64,000 nucleotides of DNA from Goekera deserti (GTDB lineage Bacteria; Actinomycetota; Actinomycetes; Mycobacteriales; Geodermatophilaceae): the NCBI RefSeq assembly GCF_010685995.1, contig NZ_JAAGWK010000012.1, positions 62,001-126,000 of the forward strand, given 5' to 3'. Shown piece after piece: positions 23,998 through 46,219 of the stretch. Position 1 is the first letter of the stretch. Every line of letters begins with the position of its first letter. Below the pieces are notes generated by a model. It saw only the letters and a list, made by a program, of their open reading frames with translations, was not told the DNA's origin and searched no databases. Both the position numbers and the translations under genes were made by a program.

Positions 23998-25089
23998 TCA
24001 GCTGTGTCGGGTGTCGCCCCGGGCCTCGGCCGCGCGACGCTCGGCGTCGGTGAGGGCGTCGGGCTCGCCGGGGGCACCGGTCGGCTCGCCCTCCGGGTCG
24101 ACGGCGGGGCCGTCGGCGTCGGGCACCTGGCCGCGTGTCTTCAGCAGGCTGGCGACCGTGGCGATGACCAGCACGCCGAGGATCACCGACAACGAGAGCC
24201 AGATCGGGATCTCCGGGATGCTCTCGATCGGCTCGCGCTCGCCGGCGAAGGGCAGCTGGTTCTCGTGCAGCGCCTCCAGCACGAGCTTGACGCCGATGAA
24301 CGCCAGGATGACGGCGAGGCCGAGCGACAGGTAGACCAGCCGCTTGAGCAGGCCGCCGAGCAGGAAGTACAGCTGCCGCAGGCCCATCAGGGCGAAGACG
24401 TTGGCGGTGAACACGATGAACGGCTCGCGGGTCAGCCCGAAGATGGCCGGGATGCTGTCCAGCGCGAAGATCAGGTCGGTGGTGCCCAGGGCGAGGAAGA
24501 CGATGACCAGCGGGGTGAAGAACCGCTTGCCGTCGCGCTTGACGCGGACCTTGCTGCCCTCGTAGTCCTCGGTGATCGGCAGGATCTTGCGCATCCGCCG
24601 GATGAGCGCGTTCTCCTCGTACTCCTCGTCCTCGTGCTGGCTGCGGACCAGGTTGATCGCGGTGTAGATGAGGAACGCGCCGAAGATGTAGAAGACCCAG
24701 ACGAACCGCTCGATGACCGCGGCGCCCAGCAGGATGAAGATCCCGCGCAGCACCAGGGCGATGATGATGCCCACCATCAGGGCCTCTTGCTGCAGCGCCC
24801 GGGGCACCTTGAAGCGGGCCATGATGATCACGAAGACGAAGAGGTTGTCGACCGACAGCGAGTACTCGGTCAACCAGCCCGCGTAGAACTGTGTCGCGAA
24901 GTCACCGTTGGTGACCACCAGCACGAGGACGCCGAACAGCAGCGCCAGCGCGACGTAGAAGACCACCCAGCGGGTGGCCTCCTTGACCGAGGGCTCGTGC
25001 GGTCGCTTGACCACCAGCGCCAGGTCGAACAGCAGCAAGGCGGTGAGCCCCACGAACGTCGCGATCTCGAACCAGACGGGGAGCTCCAC
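23998..25089 (-). CDS. TerC-family integral membrane protein (downstream paralogue)
   Basis: 363 aa with about eight to nine transmembrane segments and the TerC hallmarks SLSVDNLFVFVIIM and FALDSIPAIFGLTREPFIVF. TerC/Alx members export or exchange Mn2+ and support metalation of secreted enzymes; related proteins give tellurite resistance. The acidic HEDEEYEEN loop and a charged cytosolic C-terminal tail are visible. GTG start at 25089. It lies 186 bases behind a second terC copy, with a strong terminator in between, so it seems to be a separate transcript. Confidence 0.92.
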   Translation of the reverse strand: MELPVWFEIATFVGLTALLLFDLALVVKRPHEPSVKEATRWVVFYVALALLFGVLVLVVTNGDFATQFYAGWLTEYSLSVDNLFVFVIIMARFKVPRALQQEALMVGIIIALVLRGIFILLGAAVIERFVWVFYIFGAFLIYTAINLVRSQHEDEEYEENALIRRMRKILPITEDYEGSKVRVKRDGKRFFTPLVIVFLALGTTDLIFALDSIPAIFGLTREPFIVFTANVFALMGLRQLYFLLGGLLKRLVYLSLGLAVILAFIGVKLVLEALHENQLPFAGEREPIESIPEIPIWLSLSVILGVLVIATVASLLKTRGQVPDADGPAVDPEGEPTGAPGEPDALTDAERRAAEARGDTRHS

Positions 25090-25190
25090 GGGACAGGACT
25101 CTACGGGGACGCACAGGGAGCCGCCGTCCGTGAGCTGTGCACGACGCTCGCGGCCTGCTCACGGCAGGGTCACCGGAGCCGGACACGACG

Positions 25191-25225
25191 GAGGCCGTCG
25201 ACGACTCGGGGTCGTCGACGGCCTC
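25191..25225 (-). terminator. Strong hairpin between the two terC genes
   Basis: A perfect 15-bp stem (GAGGCCGTCGACGAC against its complement) with a five-base loop TCGGG, 50 bases after the stop of the upstream terC gene. It is a convincing factor-independent terminator stem without a strong T-run. Confidence 0.75.
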
Positions 25226-25275
25226 GGCCGTGCGGGTGGCGCGGGGCCGCGGGTGCGGCACGCCGCACCGGTGGG

Positions 25276-26415
25276 TCAGCGCGGCGCGGGCAGCCCGTCG
25301 GCGTCCCGGCTGGCGGTGTCCGGCGACCCGGTGTCGGAGGCGGTGCCGGTCTCGGAGCCCGTGTCCGCGTCGGTCTGCGGGGCGGCGGGGCCGGAGGCGC
25401 CGCCGGTGCCGGTGACGGGCAGGCCAGCCGCGGCCTGCTGCTGCTTGACCTTCTTGTCCTTGGCCAGGCTGGCCAGGGTGGTGACGACCAGTGTGACCAC
25501 GATGACGCCCAGCGACAGCCAGGTCGGGATCTCCGGGACGGCGGTCACGTGCTCGCCGCCGTTGATGAACGGCAGCTCGTTCTCGTGCAGCGCGTGGATC
25601 AGCAGCTTCAGGCCGATGAAGCCCAGGATGACGGCGAGGCCGTAGGCCAGGTACACCAGCCGGTCGAGCAGACCGTCGATGAGGAAGTACAGCTGGCGCA
25701 GGCCGAGCAGCGAGAAGGCGTTGGCGGCGAAGACGAGGAAGGTCTCCTCGGTGAGACCGAAGATCGCCGGGATCGAGTCGACGGCGAAGAGGATGTCGGC
25801 GCTGCCGATGGCGATCAGCGCGACGGCGAGCGGGGTGATGAAACGCTTCCCGTCGATCTTCGTGACCATCTTGTCGCCGTGGTACTCCTCGGTCGTCGGC
25901 AACACCTTGCGGGTGAGCCGGAGGACCGAGTTCTCCTTGAACTCCTCGTCCTTGCTGTGCCCGCCGCTGCGGGCCTGCACGACCGCGGTGTAGATGAGGA
26001 TGGCGCCGAAGAGGTAGAACACCCAGCTGAAGTTCTCGATCGCGGCGGCACCGATCACGATGAAGACCGTGCGGAGCACCAGGGCGAAGGTGATCCCGTA
26101 GAGCAGCACCTTCTGCTGCAGCTCCCGCGGGATGGCGAAGCTGGTCATGATCAGCACGAAGACGAACAGGTTGTCCACCGAGAGGCTCTTCTCGGTGATG
26201 TAGCCGGCGAAGTACTCACCGCCGTAGGTGGCCCCGGAGAAGGCGAAGACCAGCAACCCGAACACGACGGCGATGCCGACGTACACCGAGGACCAGATCG
26301 CGGACTCGCGCATCGAGGGGGCGTGCGGCGTGCGCACGTGGCCGAACAGGTCGAACGCGAGCATCCCGACGATCGCGGCGATCGTCAGTGCCCACACCCA
26401 GGTGGGGACGTCCAT
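25276..26415 (-). CDS. TerC-family integral membrane protein (riboswitch-linked paralogue)
   Basis: 379 aa, same fold as its neighbour: SLSVDNLFVFVLIM, FAVDSIPAIFGLTEETFLVF and about eight hydrophobic segments. The C-terminal 60 residues are Ala/Gly/Asp/Thr-rich and probably disordered in the cytosol. The ATG at 26415 has CGGAGGAAC before it. The leader 38 bases upstream carries a yybP-ykoY-type Mn2+ riboswitch, which supports a manganese-export role over tellurite resistance. Confidence 0.93.
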   Translation of the reverse strand: MDVPTWVWALTIAAIVGMLAFDLFGHVRTPHAPSMRESAIWSSVYVGIAVVFGLLVFAFSGATYGGEYFAGYITEKSLSVDNLFVFVLIMTSFAIPRELQQKVLLYGITFALVLRTVFIVIGAAAIENFSWVFYLFGAILIYTAVVQARSGGHSKDEEFKENSVLRLTRKVLPTTEEYHGDKMVTKIDGKRFITPLAVALIAIGSADILFAVDSIPAIFGLTEETFLVFAANAFSLLGLRQLYFLIDGLLDRLVYLAYGLAVILGFIGLKLLIHALHENELPFINGGEHVTAVPEIPTWLSLGVIVVTLVVTTLASLAKDKKVKQQQAAAGLPVTGTGGASGPAAPQTDADTGSETGTASDTGSPDTASRDADGLPAPR

Positions 26416-37024: not shown

Positions 37025-37740
<716 letters not shown>

Positions 37741-42732: not shown

Positions 42733-43359
42733 TCAGCCCTTGAGCTGGTCCAGCGTGAACGTCGCCGTGAAAGCCGCGGTGTCGCTCTGCACCTTGTTGT
42801 CCGCGGTGGTGGGCAGCGTGAGCACCAGCAGCATGCACAGCGCACCCTTGGGCTCGACCTCGAAGCTGCCCTTGGGCACGGTGAAGGCGTTCAGGGTGCC
42901 GAGGTCGGCGGTGCCCACGGCGTCGTCCAGGGTCTTGATCGCCTGGCATTCCTGGTAGTTGTGCGCCTTCTTGTCCACGTAGTACCCGACGGTGAGCTGA
43001 GCGCCGAGCTCGCCGCTGCCGGGCCCGGCCTTCGTGCAGTCGTCGCCGAGGAGCTTCTCCTCCGCCGCGCAGCCGTTCTCGTCGTTGACCACGTCGGCGA
43101 TCGAGCCGTGCAGGTAGCCGGGCGTCGAGCCGGTGTTGCGCACCAGGAACGGGTAGATGCCCGTACTGCCCGGGATGAGGTTGCCGGCGATCGTTGGCGC
43201 CTGCGCCGGCGCGTCGACGGTCACGCTCAACGTGCCGGCGGCGACCGCCGGCCCGGTCGCCGCGGCGGAGTCGGTGAACCCGGCGAAGGTGCCGCCGGTG
43301 CTGAGGGCGATGAGGGCCACGCCACCCATGGCGGCGGAGGTGAGGACGAGCTTCTTCAT
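42733..43359 (-). CDS. TasA/camelysin-like secreted protein with SipW-type signal peptide
   Basis: 208 aa. The signal peptide MKKLVLTSAAMGGVALIALS ends in GGTFAGFTDSA, the pattern cut by SipW-class peptidases. The mature part reads as a beta-sandwich like CalY/TasA: GTLSVTVDAP, NLIPGSTGIYPFLVRNTGSTPGYLHGSI, then LTVGYYVD. Four cysteines (NGC, DDC, QEC, ALC) suggest disulfides. The ATG at 43359 is preceded by AGGAG; an upstream ATG at 43494 is rejected because the signal peptide begins here. A SipW-type peptidase is encoded 2.3 kb away and a kinase-regulator pair is divergent. Confidence 0.8.
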   Translation of the reverse strand: MKKLVLTSAAMGGVALIALSTGGTFAGFTDSAAATGPAVAAGTLSVTVDAPAQAPTIAGNLIPGSTGIYPFLVRNTGSTPGYLHGSIADVVNDENGCAAEEKLLGDDCTKAGPGSGELGAQLTVGYYVDKKAHNYQECQAIKTLDDAVGTADLGTLNAFTVPKGSFEVEPKGALCMLLVLTLPTTADNKVQSDTAAFTATFTLDQLKG

Positions 43360-43573
43360 GGTTGTTCTCCTGTCGATGGCCGCGCGGCGGCGGTCACCCG
43401 CCGGTCGTGCGGCTGGCAGGGAGAGGTTCCCGTGAGGGTCGGTGGGGCGGCATCGTCCACGTTGAGGATGCGCCGGCTGTAACGGGTGGGTCACGTGTTG
43501 CGGACACTGTCACCGAAATGGATCAGCTGGTCACGGCGCGTGTTGTAGTCGGCGCAACCCCAGGAGGTGGTCC

Positions 43574-44455
43574 GTGCCGATCAGGACGACGGCCGGCTCG
43601 GGCGGTGACCGGATGAGTCCGGCCCGCGACCGGCCGGTCACCCCGCCCGCCCGCCGACCCCGGCGGGCGGCGGCGCTGACCCGTCGCCGCAGCTCGCTGC
43701 TCGACGCGTGGGCGACCCCGCGCCGCCGCCCGACCGCGCTCCCGGACGTACCGGACGAGGCGACGGCGCTGCTGGCGGAGGCCGAGCAGCGGTTGCGCGC
43801 CGTGCGGGAGTGCCTGCACGACGCGCGGTCCCTGGTGGCCGGGGTACGCGCCGCGTCGTCGATGACCCGACACCCGGCCTTCGGTGACGACCCGGCCCGG
43901 CGCGCGGCTGTGGAGCAGGCGGTGGACCGGGAGCTCGCCCGGCTGGAGCGGATGCTGCAGCTGCCCGACCGGGCGCCCGCGCCGGGCGCCGTCGCCCTGG
44001 ACGACGTGATCGGCTTCCTGGTCGGTACGCACCGGCAGCGCGGGCTCGCGGTCAGCTGGACGGCGACCGGAACCGGCCCGGTCACCGTCGACGCCGACGC
44101 GCTGGCGGTGATCGTGGGCAACCTGCTCGACAACGCCCTGGCGCACGCCGCCGGTGCCCCGTGCCGGGTGAGCGCGCACCTGGGCGACCAGCTCACCGTG
44201 ACCGTCGCCGACGACGGCCCGGGCCTGGGCGACACCGGCGCCGTGTTCTCCCCGGGTGTGCACCGGACCGGCAGCCCGGGCGAGGGGCTCGGCCTGGGCA
44301 TCGCTCGGGCGATGGCCCGCGCCCACGGCGGCGAGCTGGTGGCCGAGTCGTCCCGCGCCGGTGCCACGTTCACCCTGACGCTGCCCCTCGGGGCCGTGCA
44401 CCTGCTCCCCACCACGCTGTCGGTCGACCCGGCCCGTCTCCGGCTGGTCGGATGA
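43574..44455 (+). CDS. Soluble histidine kinase-like ATPase
   Basis: 293 aa, no transmembrane segment. An Arg-rich N-terminus (1-55) is followed by a helical region with a candidate phospho-His in ECLHDARSLVAGVRAASS, then a HATPase domain: N-box IVGNLLDNALAHA, G1 VADDGPGLGDTG, G2 GEGLGLGIARAMARAHGG. There is no recognisable sensor domain, so the input is unknown and probably cytosolic. GTG 43574 has AGGAGG six bases upstream. The stop overlaps the regulator gene (ATGA). Confidence 0.8.
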   Translation: MPIRTTAGSGGDRMSPARDRPVTPPARRPRRAAALTRRRSSLLDAWATPRRRPTALPDVPDEATALLAEAEQRLRAVRECLHDARSLVAGVRAASSMTRHPAFGDDPARRAAVEQAVDRELARLERMLQLPDRAPAPGAVALDDVIGFLVGTHRQRGLAVSWTATGTGPVTVDADALAVIVGNLLDNALAHAAGAPCRVSAHLGDQLTVTVADDGPGLGDTGAVFSPGVHRTGSPGEGLGLGIARAMARAHGGELVAESSRAGATFTLTLPLGAVHLLPTTLSVDPARLRLVG

Positions 44456-45129
44456 CCACCGCGGTGCCCGTGCTCCTGGTCGACGACCACGTGCTGCTGG
44501 CCCAGGCGGTCCAGTTCGCGCTGCGCACAGCGGGGATCGAGGCGTCGGTGGTGGCCCCGGACTCCGCGGACGCCGTGCTGACCGCGGCCCGGGCGGTGGC
44601 GCCGGCGACCGTTCTGCTGGACCTGCGTCTGGGTGTCCCGGGCGGCACCGTGCTCGACGGGCTGGACCTCGTCGCCCCGCTGGTCGCCGCCGGCTGCACC
44701 GTCGTCGTGTTGACCGCCGAGCCGGCCGGCAGCGTCTGGGGCACGGCACTGCAGCGCGGGGCGACGACGGTGCTGGCCAAGGACGCCCCCCTGGACCGTC
44801 TCGTGGAGACGGTGCTCACCGTGCGCGCCGGCGGCGACCCGCTGCCTCCGGGACGACGGCAGCAGCTGCTCGCCGCGGCTCGCACGGCGCGCGCCGACGA
44901 GACCGCGCGCTGGGCTCCGTTCCGCCGGCTGAGCCCCCGGGAGGACGAGGTGCTGCGCCGGCTGGCCGACGGGATGACGACGGCCGCGATCGCTCGGGCC
45001 TCGTTCGTCAGCGAGTCGACCGTCCGCAGCCAGATCCGTGGCGTGCTGACCAAGCTGCAGGCCACCTCGCAGCTGCAGGCGGTCGCCGCCGCCCGCCGGA
45101 CGGGCTGGCTGGACGCCGCCGGCCGCTGA
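44452..45129 (+). CDS. NarL/LuxR-type response regulator
   Basis: 225 aa. Receiver domain with acidic pair LLVDDH, phospho-acceptor D57 (TVLLDLRLG), the conserved Thr in VVVLTAEP and Lys in TTVLAKDAP. The C-terminal helix-turn-helix LSPREDEVLRRLADGMTTAAIARASFVSESTVRSQIRGVLTKL is of LuxR type. ATG overlaps the kinase stop, so the two form a two-component pair. Likely targets are the flanking secretion genes, but this is inferred from position only. Confidence 0.88.
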   Translation: MTTAVPVLLVDDHVLLAQAVQFALRTAGIEASVVAPDSADAVLTAARAVAPATVLLDLRLGVPGGTVLDGLDLVAPLVAAGCTVVVLTAEPAGSVWGTALQRGATTVLAKDAPLDRLVETVLTVRAGGDPLPPGRRQQLLAAARTARADETARWAPFRRLSPREDEVLRRLADGMTTAAIARASFVSESTVRSQIRGVLTKLQATSQLQAVAAARRTGWLDAAGR

Positions 45130-45141
45130 CCGGGCGTCCGC

Positions 45142-45522
45142 TCAGTCGCCCGGAGTCCCGGGGACCGGAGGTCCGGGAGCTGGGTCCACCGGCTCGGCGG
45201 GGCCGCCGCCGGCGGGAGGCGCGGTCGAGGCCTCCCCCTGCCCGCCCGTAGCGGGGGGCACTGCCGGCTCCGGCGGCGCGGACTCGACAGGCAGGGCGGG
45301 CCCCGGCTCCGGATCGGCGGGCAGCGCTGCCCCGACAGAGCCCGGGTCCGCGTCGGCTGCGACCCCGCCGTCCGGGGCCGGGTCCCCGGCCGGCCCGGCG
45401 ATGGCCACGACCCCTGCGCCGGTCACGTCGGTGAACGACGCCGTCGTCGTCCCCGCCGGCCCCTCGGCCAGCGTGCCCGCCCACAGCGCCAGCGCCACTC
45501 CGACGACGGCCCGGCCGCTCAC
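45142..45522 (-). CDS. Small Pro/Ala-rich secreted protein with SipW-like signal peptide
   Basis: 126 aa from GTG 45522. The N-terminus SGRAVVGVALALWAGTLAEG ends in TTTASFTDVTGAG, closely resembling the FTD signal-cleavage region of the TasA-like protein in the same cluster. The rest is Pro/Ala/Gly/Asp/Glu-rich, probably disordered or wall-spanning, with no fold recognised. It is convergent with the regulator gene and divergent from the SipW-type peptidase. A longer open frame to 45912 overlaps the peptidase gene and is rejected. No clear ribosome site. Confidence 0.55.
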   Translation of the reverse strand: MSGRAVVGVALALWAGTLAEGPAGTTTASFTDVTGAGVVAIAGPAGDPAPDGGVAADADPGSVGAALPADPEPGPALPVESAPPEPAVPPATGGQGEASTAPPAGGGPAEPVDPAPGPPVPGTPGD

Positions 45523-45625
45523 GTCGGCGGCATCGGGGGCGGGGGCACGGACCGATGCTCGTGCGCTGCTCCCCCGGCCCGCATCCCCAGCTTCGATGAT
45601 GTGCGACCGGCCGGCCGTGGCGAGG

Positions 45626-46219
45626 ATGGCGAGCGTGTCCACGACGCTGCTCCCACCGGCCGACGCACCCTCCCCCGCGGCTCCCGGGCACCGGCGGATG
45701 CGCGTGGTGCGCCGCGTCGTCGCGGGCCTGCTGGGTCTGGTGCTGCTGGGCGTGACCGGTCTCGCGCTGGGTATCGCGCTGTACCCGAGGGTGACCGGCG
45801 GCAGTGCGCTCACGGTGCTCAGCGGCAGCATGGCGCCCGGCATACCGGTCGGTGCCCTGGTCCTCACCCGCGCGGTCGACCCGAGCACCGTGGTGGTCGG
45901 CGACGTCGTCACCTACCAGCGGGCCACCGGCGTGCTGGTCACCCACCGGGTCGTGGCCGTGGACGGCACCGGCGCGACGCTGTCGTTCACCACCCGGGGT
46001 GACGCCAACGCCGACGCCGACGCCGACCCGGTGCCGGCCGGCGACGTCCGCGGTGTGCTGTGGTCCGCCGTGCCCGGTCTCGGGCGCTTCGCCGTGCTGG
46101 CGCACAGCCCGACCGGCGCCGGGGTGCTGGTGCTGCTGGCCTGCGCCGTGCTGGCCGTGTCACCGGGTCGGCAGCTCCCCCGGCCGGCCGACGAGCTGCC
46201 CGGGCCGGTCGCACCGTAG
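45626..46219 (+). CDS. sipW: ER-type (SipW-like) signal peptidase I
   Basis: 197 aa. One N-terminal transmembrane helix (VVAGLLGLVLLGVTGLALGIALY), then the catalytic domain with S68 (TVLSGSMAPGIPVGALVL) and, in place of the usual bacterial lysine, H107 (GVLVTHRVVAV); this Ser-His pair marks the ER/SipW class. DVVTYQ and FTTRGDAN follow, and a second C-terminal hydrophobic segment (GVLVLLACAVLAV) ends it. The start is uncertain: in-frame ATGs at 45596 and 45698 and an earlier GTG/ATG series to 45401 exist. Confidence 0.85.
   Translation: MASVSTTLLPPADAPSPAAPGHRRMRVVRRVVAGLLGLVLLGVTGLALGIALYPRVTGGSALTVLSGSMAPGIPVGALVLTRAVDPSTVVVGDVVTYQRATGVLVTHRVVAVDGTGATLSFTTRGDANADADADPVPAGDVRGVLWSAVPGLGRFAVLAHSPTGAGVLVLLACAVLAVSPGRQLPRPADELPGPVAP

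Follow-up and report, generated by a model that had tools for sequence, protein, structure and literature searches.

The locus at positions 42733 to 46219 of the Goekera deserti DNA analysed here (64,000 nucleotides, referred to as the window, from a soil-type actinobacterium with a genome of 4.84 Mb) raises the question of whether a signal peptidase of the SipW class, two secreted proteins and a two-component pair work as one system and, if so, what that system makes. An earlier note on this DNA had read the five genes as a secretion module that could build surface filaments under its own switch. All five genes were present and open where that note placed them, with no stop or frameshift. The map order was ribD-like gene (+), TasA-like gene (-), kinase gene (+), regulator gene (+), the gene of a second SipW-type cargo, referred to as cargo 2 (-), peptidase gene (+) and ligase-like gene (+), with two divergent promoter regions, one between the TasA-like and kinase genes and one between the cargo 2 and peptidase genes. 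Results point to a unit that is co-inherited and probably co-regulated, of which the window copy is a reduced member. The explanation that we favour, with fair confidence, is a filament system that works by donor strands and has a dedicated switch, in a form that is minimal and apparently untethered; filament assembly is the part that we infer.

The survey of the family, Geodermatophilaceae, covered 115 genomes, with the window's genus represented by the window's genome alone. Ten other family genomes carried the TasA-like gene and a closely related peptidase gene 4-5 kb apart, which places the module in 11 of the 115, and each of the ten relatives had the same gene order between the same flanks (the Klenkia marina locus gave no ribD-like match). 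The order was therefore kept in 11 genomes and five genera including the window's, and the relatives named with the same locus were Klenkia, Blastococcus, Trujillonella, Geodermatophilus and a Modestobacter strain. To look outside the family, 342 genomes of the class were sampled. Seven of them, all belonging to other families (G144, G119, G177, G172, G224, G285 and G294), had kinase homologues at most 1.7 kb from a SipW gene, and the three of these loci that were read in detail also contained TasA-type and regulator genes and a gene resembling the anchor gene described below. The genes thus co-occur, syntenically within the family and in looser clusters beyond it. The ribD-like and ligase-like flanks were adjacent in most family genomes; worked out by hand, the gap between them was 3.6-8.0 kb with the module, and at least 12 of the genomes that lack the module had less than 150 bp there. 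The module tree and the flank tree agreed at genus level, a pattern that inheritance and repeated loss explain better than repeated arrival. The site between these flanks looks variable, as the gap ranges in this family between 23 bp and 8 kb and genomes without the module often have 1-5.5 kb of other content in it.

Words enriched in the intergenic regions led to an inverted repeat of 20 bp, CATCGTC-N6-GATGATG, which all 11 genomes have in each of the two divergent promoter regions. The window copies were CATCGTC-CACGTT-GAGGATG (43451..43470, +) between the TasA-like and kinase genes and CATCCCC-AGCTTC-GATGATG (45582..45601, +) between the cargo 2 and peptidase genes. A matrix was built from the 20 sites of the ten relatives, with the window sites excluded, and over the 64-kb window it ranked the cargo 2/peptidase site first (19.4) and the TasA-like/kinase site second (17.2), the next distinct site scoring 12.3. 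Maxima of shuffled windows were mostly below 16 but reached 22.8 once, so it is the two positions that are decisive and not the score by itself. A looser pattern, CATCNNCN6GANGATG, devised after the sites were seen, matched only the two module sites in the window's genome (reversed control, 0), and its few other matches in the relatives all lacked the CATCGTC half. Streptacidiphilus and Halopolyspora had sites of this kind between their TasA and SipW genes, and G144 had one upstream of its TasA gene; no convincing operator was found at the G285 and G224 loci. The repeat is operator-like, and the module's own regulator is predicted from these sequences to bind it. That the genes work as one unit with its own switch, as had been proposed, is supported by the synteny, the recurrence and the finding of this shared repeat only at the two promoter regions.

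The kinase gene (43574..44455, +) codes for the catalytic core of a histidine kinase of 293 amino acids, with a Shine-Dalgarno sequence AGGAGG before GTG 43574. The HATPase_c domain scored 66 bits, over its cut-off, and a phosphoacceptor-like LHD motif and the N and G boxes were invariant in the alignment; there was no HisKA family match, the acceptor His being assigned by alignment only. The regulator gene (44452..45129, +) overlaps it as ATGA and codes for a NarL/LuxR-type response regulator of 225 amino acids, with Response_reg and GerE both above cut-off and 57-64% identity across the ten orthologous loci. By their domains, an ATPase domain with an acceptor His in one protein and a receiver with a DNA-binding domain in the other, the two genes are classed as a two-component pair. 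The earlier note had taken a kinase without a membrane segment as part of the design. This holds for the window copy, whose best 19-residue Kyte-Doolittle mean of 1.34 indicates no membrane segment, but not for the system, since the kinase of all ten relatives has about 500 amino acids and an N-terminal block of roughly eight membrane segments, five to eight hydrophobic segments being counted in a simple hydropathy scan (no family was identified for this block). The cytosolic kinase of the window is thus a reduction in this lineage.

The peptidase gene (GTG 45635, or ATG 45626, to 46219, +) codes for an ER-type enzyme of about 194 amino acids. It scored 86.7 bits against TIGR02228 (cut-off 51.85) and fell below the Bacillus SipW equivalog NF046067 (79.8 against 190), which by profile score makes it a member of the SipW class and not SipW itself. 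The Ser of SGSM and the His of VTHRV (THR), the expected dyad, were invariant in 11 orthologues, and the peptidases of the ten relatives were 53-58% identical overall. The numbering Ser68/His107 given before fits when counted from ATG 45626, and it is GTG 45635 that lies 34 bp from the operator edge.

The TasA-like gene (42733..43359, -), with AGGAGA as Shine-Dalgarno sequence upstream, codes for a secreted protein of 208 amino acids. It matched PF12389 with 27.8 bits (cut-off 22.5) over residues 11-78 only, which agrees with the camelysin-like identity suggested earlier, and it scored below the B. subtilis TasA equivalog NF046066 (13.2 bits against 450). Its SipW-type signal peptide ends in GTFAGFTD and scores under the cut-off of the SipW signal models. 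An AlphaFold2 model was built from 11 orthologues, and its best PDB match was B. subtilis TasA (5of2/5of1; Foldseek E 2.2e-4). VIA-align placed the model on TasA with Z 8.6 and a root-mean-square deviation of 3.8 A over 139 residues, and unrelated jelly rolls came next at Z 7.5, a margin of about 1 Z unit. The top match of the 11-orthologue profile was the TasA fibre chain 8aur (E 0.0023), aligned from residue 1 at its mature N-terminus, AFNDIKS, through the proline box LKPGD. The N-terminal donor segment and the L-x-PG proline box were both present, and P63 was invariant in the alignment. The modelled fold is therefore the TasA-type beta-sandwich that the earlier note had asked about, and the protein is assigned on this model to the TasA/camelysin type. 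Polymerisation by donor-strand exchange would follow by analogy with TasA.

The cargo 2 gene (45142..45522, -) codes for 126 amino acids, namely a signal peptide ending in TTTASFTD, a short N-terminal stretch and a disordered Pro/Ala-rich tail, in line with the first description of a small protein with an SFTD-ending signal. No family match was found for it in the profile libraries. Its counterparts in the relatives, located by tblastn with two example sequences, had in ten of ten loci well over 100 residues of folded-looking sequence that separate the signal from the tail; the window protein is signal and tail only. Disorder thus describes the window copy correctly but not the system, and the short form is a reduction in the window lineage. 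The cargo 2 profile aligned to columns 17-99 of the TasA-like profile, covering the signal and the donor region. Among PDB sequences cargo 2 did not match TapA, and what is shared is confined to the TasA-like donor region. Halopolyspora, too, has a cargo that is short and disordered and bears a SipW-type signal, beside its anchor-like gene, so a small cargo is not unique to the window.

The set of five genes proved incomplete, as all ten relatives have a sixth, overlooked before, which codes for a membrane-anchored protein of 300-360 amino acids with a TasA domain (the anchor). It has an ordinary A-x-A signal, the TasA-related domain, a Gly/Pro/Ala stretch, a C-terminal membrane helix and an Arg cluster. 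The anchor profile aligned to TasA-like columns 60-203 only (probability 97.8%, E 1.2e-12), and the domain starts at the L-x-PG box, which leaves it without the donor and self-complementing strands. The anchor model had no PDB match under E 0.001, and VIA-align put a conjugative-transposon lipoprotein (Z 7.2) above TasA (Z 6.3), both too low to decide; the kinship of anchor and TasA rests on the profile comparison. In the window's genome, the sole match of the anchor profile was the TasA-like gene.

At the position of the anchor gene, the window has a nine-codon open reading frame (ORF), VPPPPMPPT* (45519..45548, -), which reads GTG CCC CCG CCC CCG ATG CCG CCG ACG TGA. Its GTG lies 34 bp from the operator, on the other side of which the peptidase GTG stands at the same distance; the anchor GTG was at 33-35 bp in ten of ten relatives, and the peptidase start likewise in most loci. 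Its TGA overlaps the cargo 2 start as GTGA (4 nt), as does the anchor stop in nine of ten relatives. From its sequence, the ORF looks like a deletion scar in which the anchor start and the coupling to cargo 2 were kept. Sequence comparison with the relatives indicates that the window lineage lost the anchor, the membrane part of the kinase and most of cargo 2. An assembly artefact was considered as the cause of the missing pieces and rejected, because three separate losses lie within one contig and the start-stop coupling is preserved.

One of the closest known systems is the tapA-sipW-tasA operon of B. subtilis, whose TasA forms filaments by donor-strand exchange (PMC9674648, PMC10151520). 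Both have a SipW-class peptidase with a TasA-type substrate, the TasA fold, the motif and N-terminal segment at the mature end, and a second SipW-type substrate that shares the donor region. The module differs in its divergent promoters, its own two-component pair and the shared operator-like repeat; no TapA homologue was recognised in it by sequence, and the relatives add the membrane-anchored TasA-domain protein with its ordinary signal peptide. As in sipW-calY (camelysin) of B. cereus, the SipW peptidase is accompanied by more than one protein of the TasA/camelysin type; a kinase-regulator pair and an anchored TasA-domain protein are absent from the description of that system in PMC10151520. 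The donor strand of TasA is made up of residues 28-38, and a self-complementing strand (48-61) fills the same groove in the monomer (PMC9674648). Secreted TapA residues 44-57 alone support normal biofilm in B. subtilis (PMC10151520).

The clusters of Halopolyspora (L081), Streptacidiphilus (L105), G144 (L164) and G224/G285 likewise have SipW, one or more TasA-type proteins, and a kinase with a NarL-type regulator. These other actinobacterial clusters differ in gene order and in their anchors, which have LPxTG/LAxTG-like ends and an extra N-terminal strand; anchor-like proteins were seen in L081, L164, L166 and L167. The Halopolyspora algeriensis locus (L081, 2799-6118) has four consecutive TasA-type genes beside SipW, with a CGTCGTCAA-like site repeated upstream of at least two of them, and appears to be an expanded filament locus. 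In Cellulomonas (L083, 7046-7783) and Nocardioides (L084, 7085-7738), the SipW neighbour was a secreted protein with a C-terminal membrane segment and there was no kinase pair; the Nocardioides protein has LPDTG, and the two proteins are possibly a further anchor class. In the collection of papers searched, neither actinobacterial TasA or SipW filaments nor these clusters were found described. To our knowledge, TapA is not conserved even within Bacillus.

In the mechanism proposed, the kinase would phosphorylate the regulator, which would bind the repeat and set the expression of this module alone. The peptidase would cleave before the [AGS]F[TS]D motif and expose the N-terminal donor strand of the TasA-like subunit, and the subunits would then polymerise by donor-strand exchange as in TasA. 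Cargo 2, with its shared donor-strand region, may start the chain in the manner of TapA. Since the short TapA segment is sufficient in B. subtilis, cargo 2 could still start filaments when little more than its N-terminus is left. The anchor of the relatives, having a TasA domain without the donor and self-complementing strands, would have to accept a strand and could serve as the filament's tether at the membrane. What the intact genes left in the window lineage would produce is a filament that has no tether and is controlled by a cytosolic kinase; with no anchor left, such a filament would be held by other means or released. The formation of a surface filament by these proteins is argued by analogy with Bacillus. 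A more specific version, namely an actinobacterial TasA-type filament on a dedicated membrane base that is an obligate strand acceptor, with a private switch controlling nothing else and the window as a natural tetherless minimal version whose starter approaches a secreted donor peptide, is put forward tentatively, as possible rather than probable.

Several points weigh against the filament system. Filament formation, cleavage, phosphorylation and DNA binding are all predictions from sequence. The TasA-like model has a middling predicted local distance difference test score (pLDDT) of 71.6, with values below 50 for residues 1-39, which hold the donor region, and the cargo 2 and anchor profiles match no relevant solved structure by sequence. 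About 90% of the family genomes searched lack the module, and the accumulation of three losses in a single locus could mark the beginning of decay. This last point leads to the main rival, in which the locus is a remnant that no longer functions, of a filament module being lost in the window lineage. The separate losses of anchor, kinase sensor part and cargo 2 body agree with it, as do the many family genomes without the module, at least 12 of them with nearly closed flanks, and the long branch of the window's module (0.61, against 0.17 for the flanks). Against a decaying locus stand five remaining genes free of stops and frameshifts, intact catalytic motifs in kinase, regulator and peptidase, both operator sites with their 34-bp spacings, and the start-stop coupling kept at the deletion scar, and we regard decay as unlikely.

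Somewhat less likely still is that the SipW-dependent proteins are soluble secreted or cell-surface proteins (adhesin, protease or antimicrobial) that form no filaments, with the two-component pair controlling their export. Pfam files the camelysins as peptidases (PF12389), Pro/Gly tails fit surface proteins, and the first description of TasA in B. subtilis was that of an antimicrobial protein of the spore coat (PMC9674648); the best structure and profile matches were nevertheless TasA and its fibre, with the alignment covering the mature N-terminus, and a donor-strand system predicts just such a partner, with the fold but without the N-terminal strands. These genomes have many two-component genes and the kinase and regulator families are widespread, so an unrelated pair could have come to lie among SipW genes. 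Such a coincidence is already contradicted by the order kept in 11 genomes of five genera, the recurrence in other families and the one repeat exclusive to the locus, and is considered very improbable.

Elsewhere in the window, a secreted-protein gene was noted at 37165-37740 (+), part of whose product we take to resemble a resuscitation-promoting-factor (transglycosylase-like) domain. Two adjacent, similar membrane-protein genes (23998-26415, -) lie in a stretch of lower G+C content (0.68-0.69 between 24 and 30 kb; the surrounding DNA has about 0.75).

Bacillus makes TasA filaments and archaea make related pili, and a candidate anchor addresses the question of how fibres of this kind are fixed to the cell. 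The actinobacterial set offers that candidate anchor together with a candidate starter and a switch with a predicted regulon of one locus, and the window lineage shows which parts can be lost, so that the putative roles of anchor and starter may be compared across natural versions of the system.

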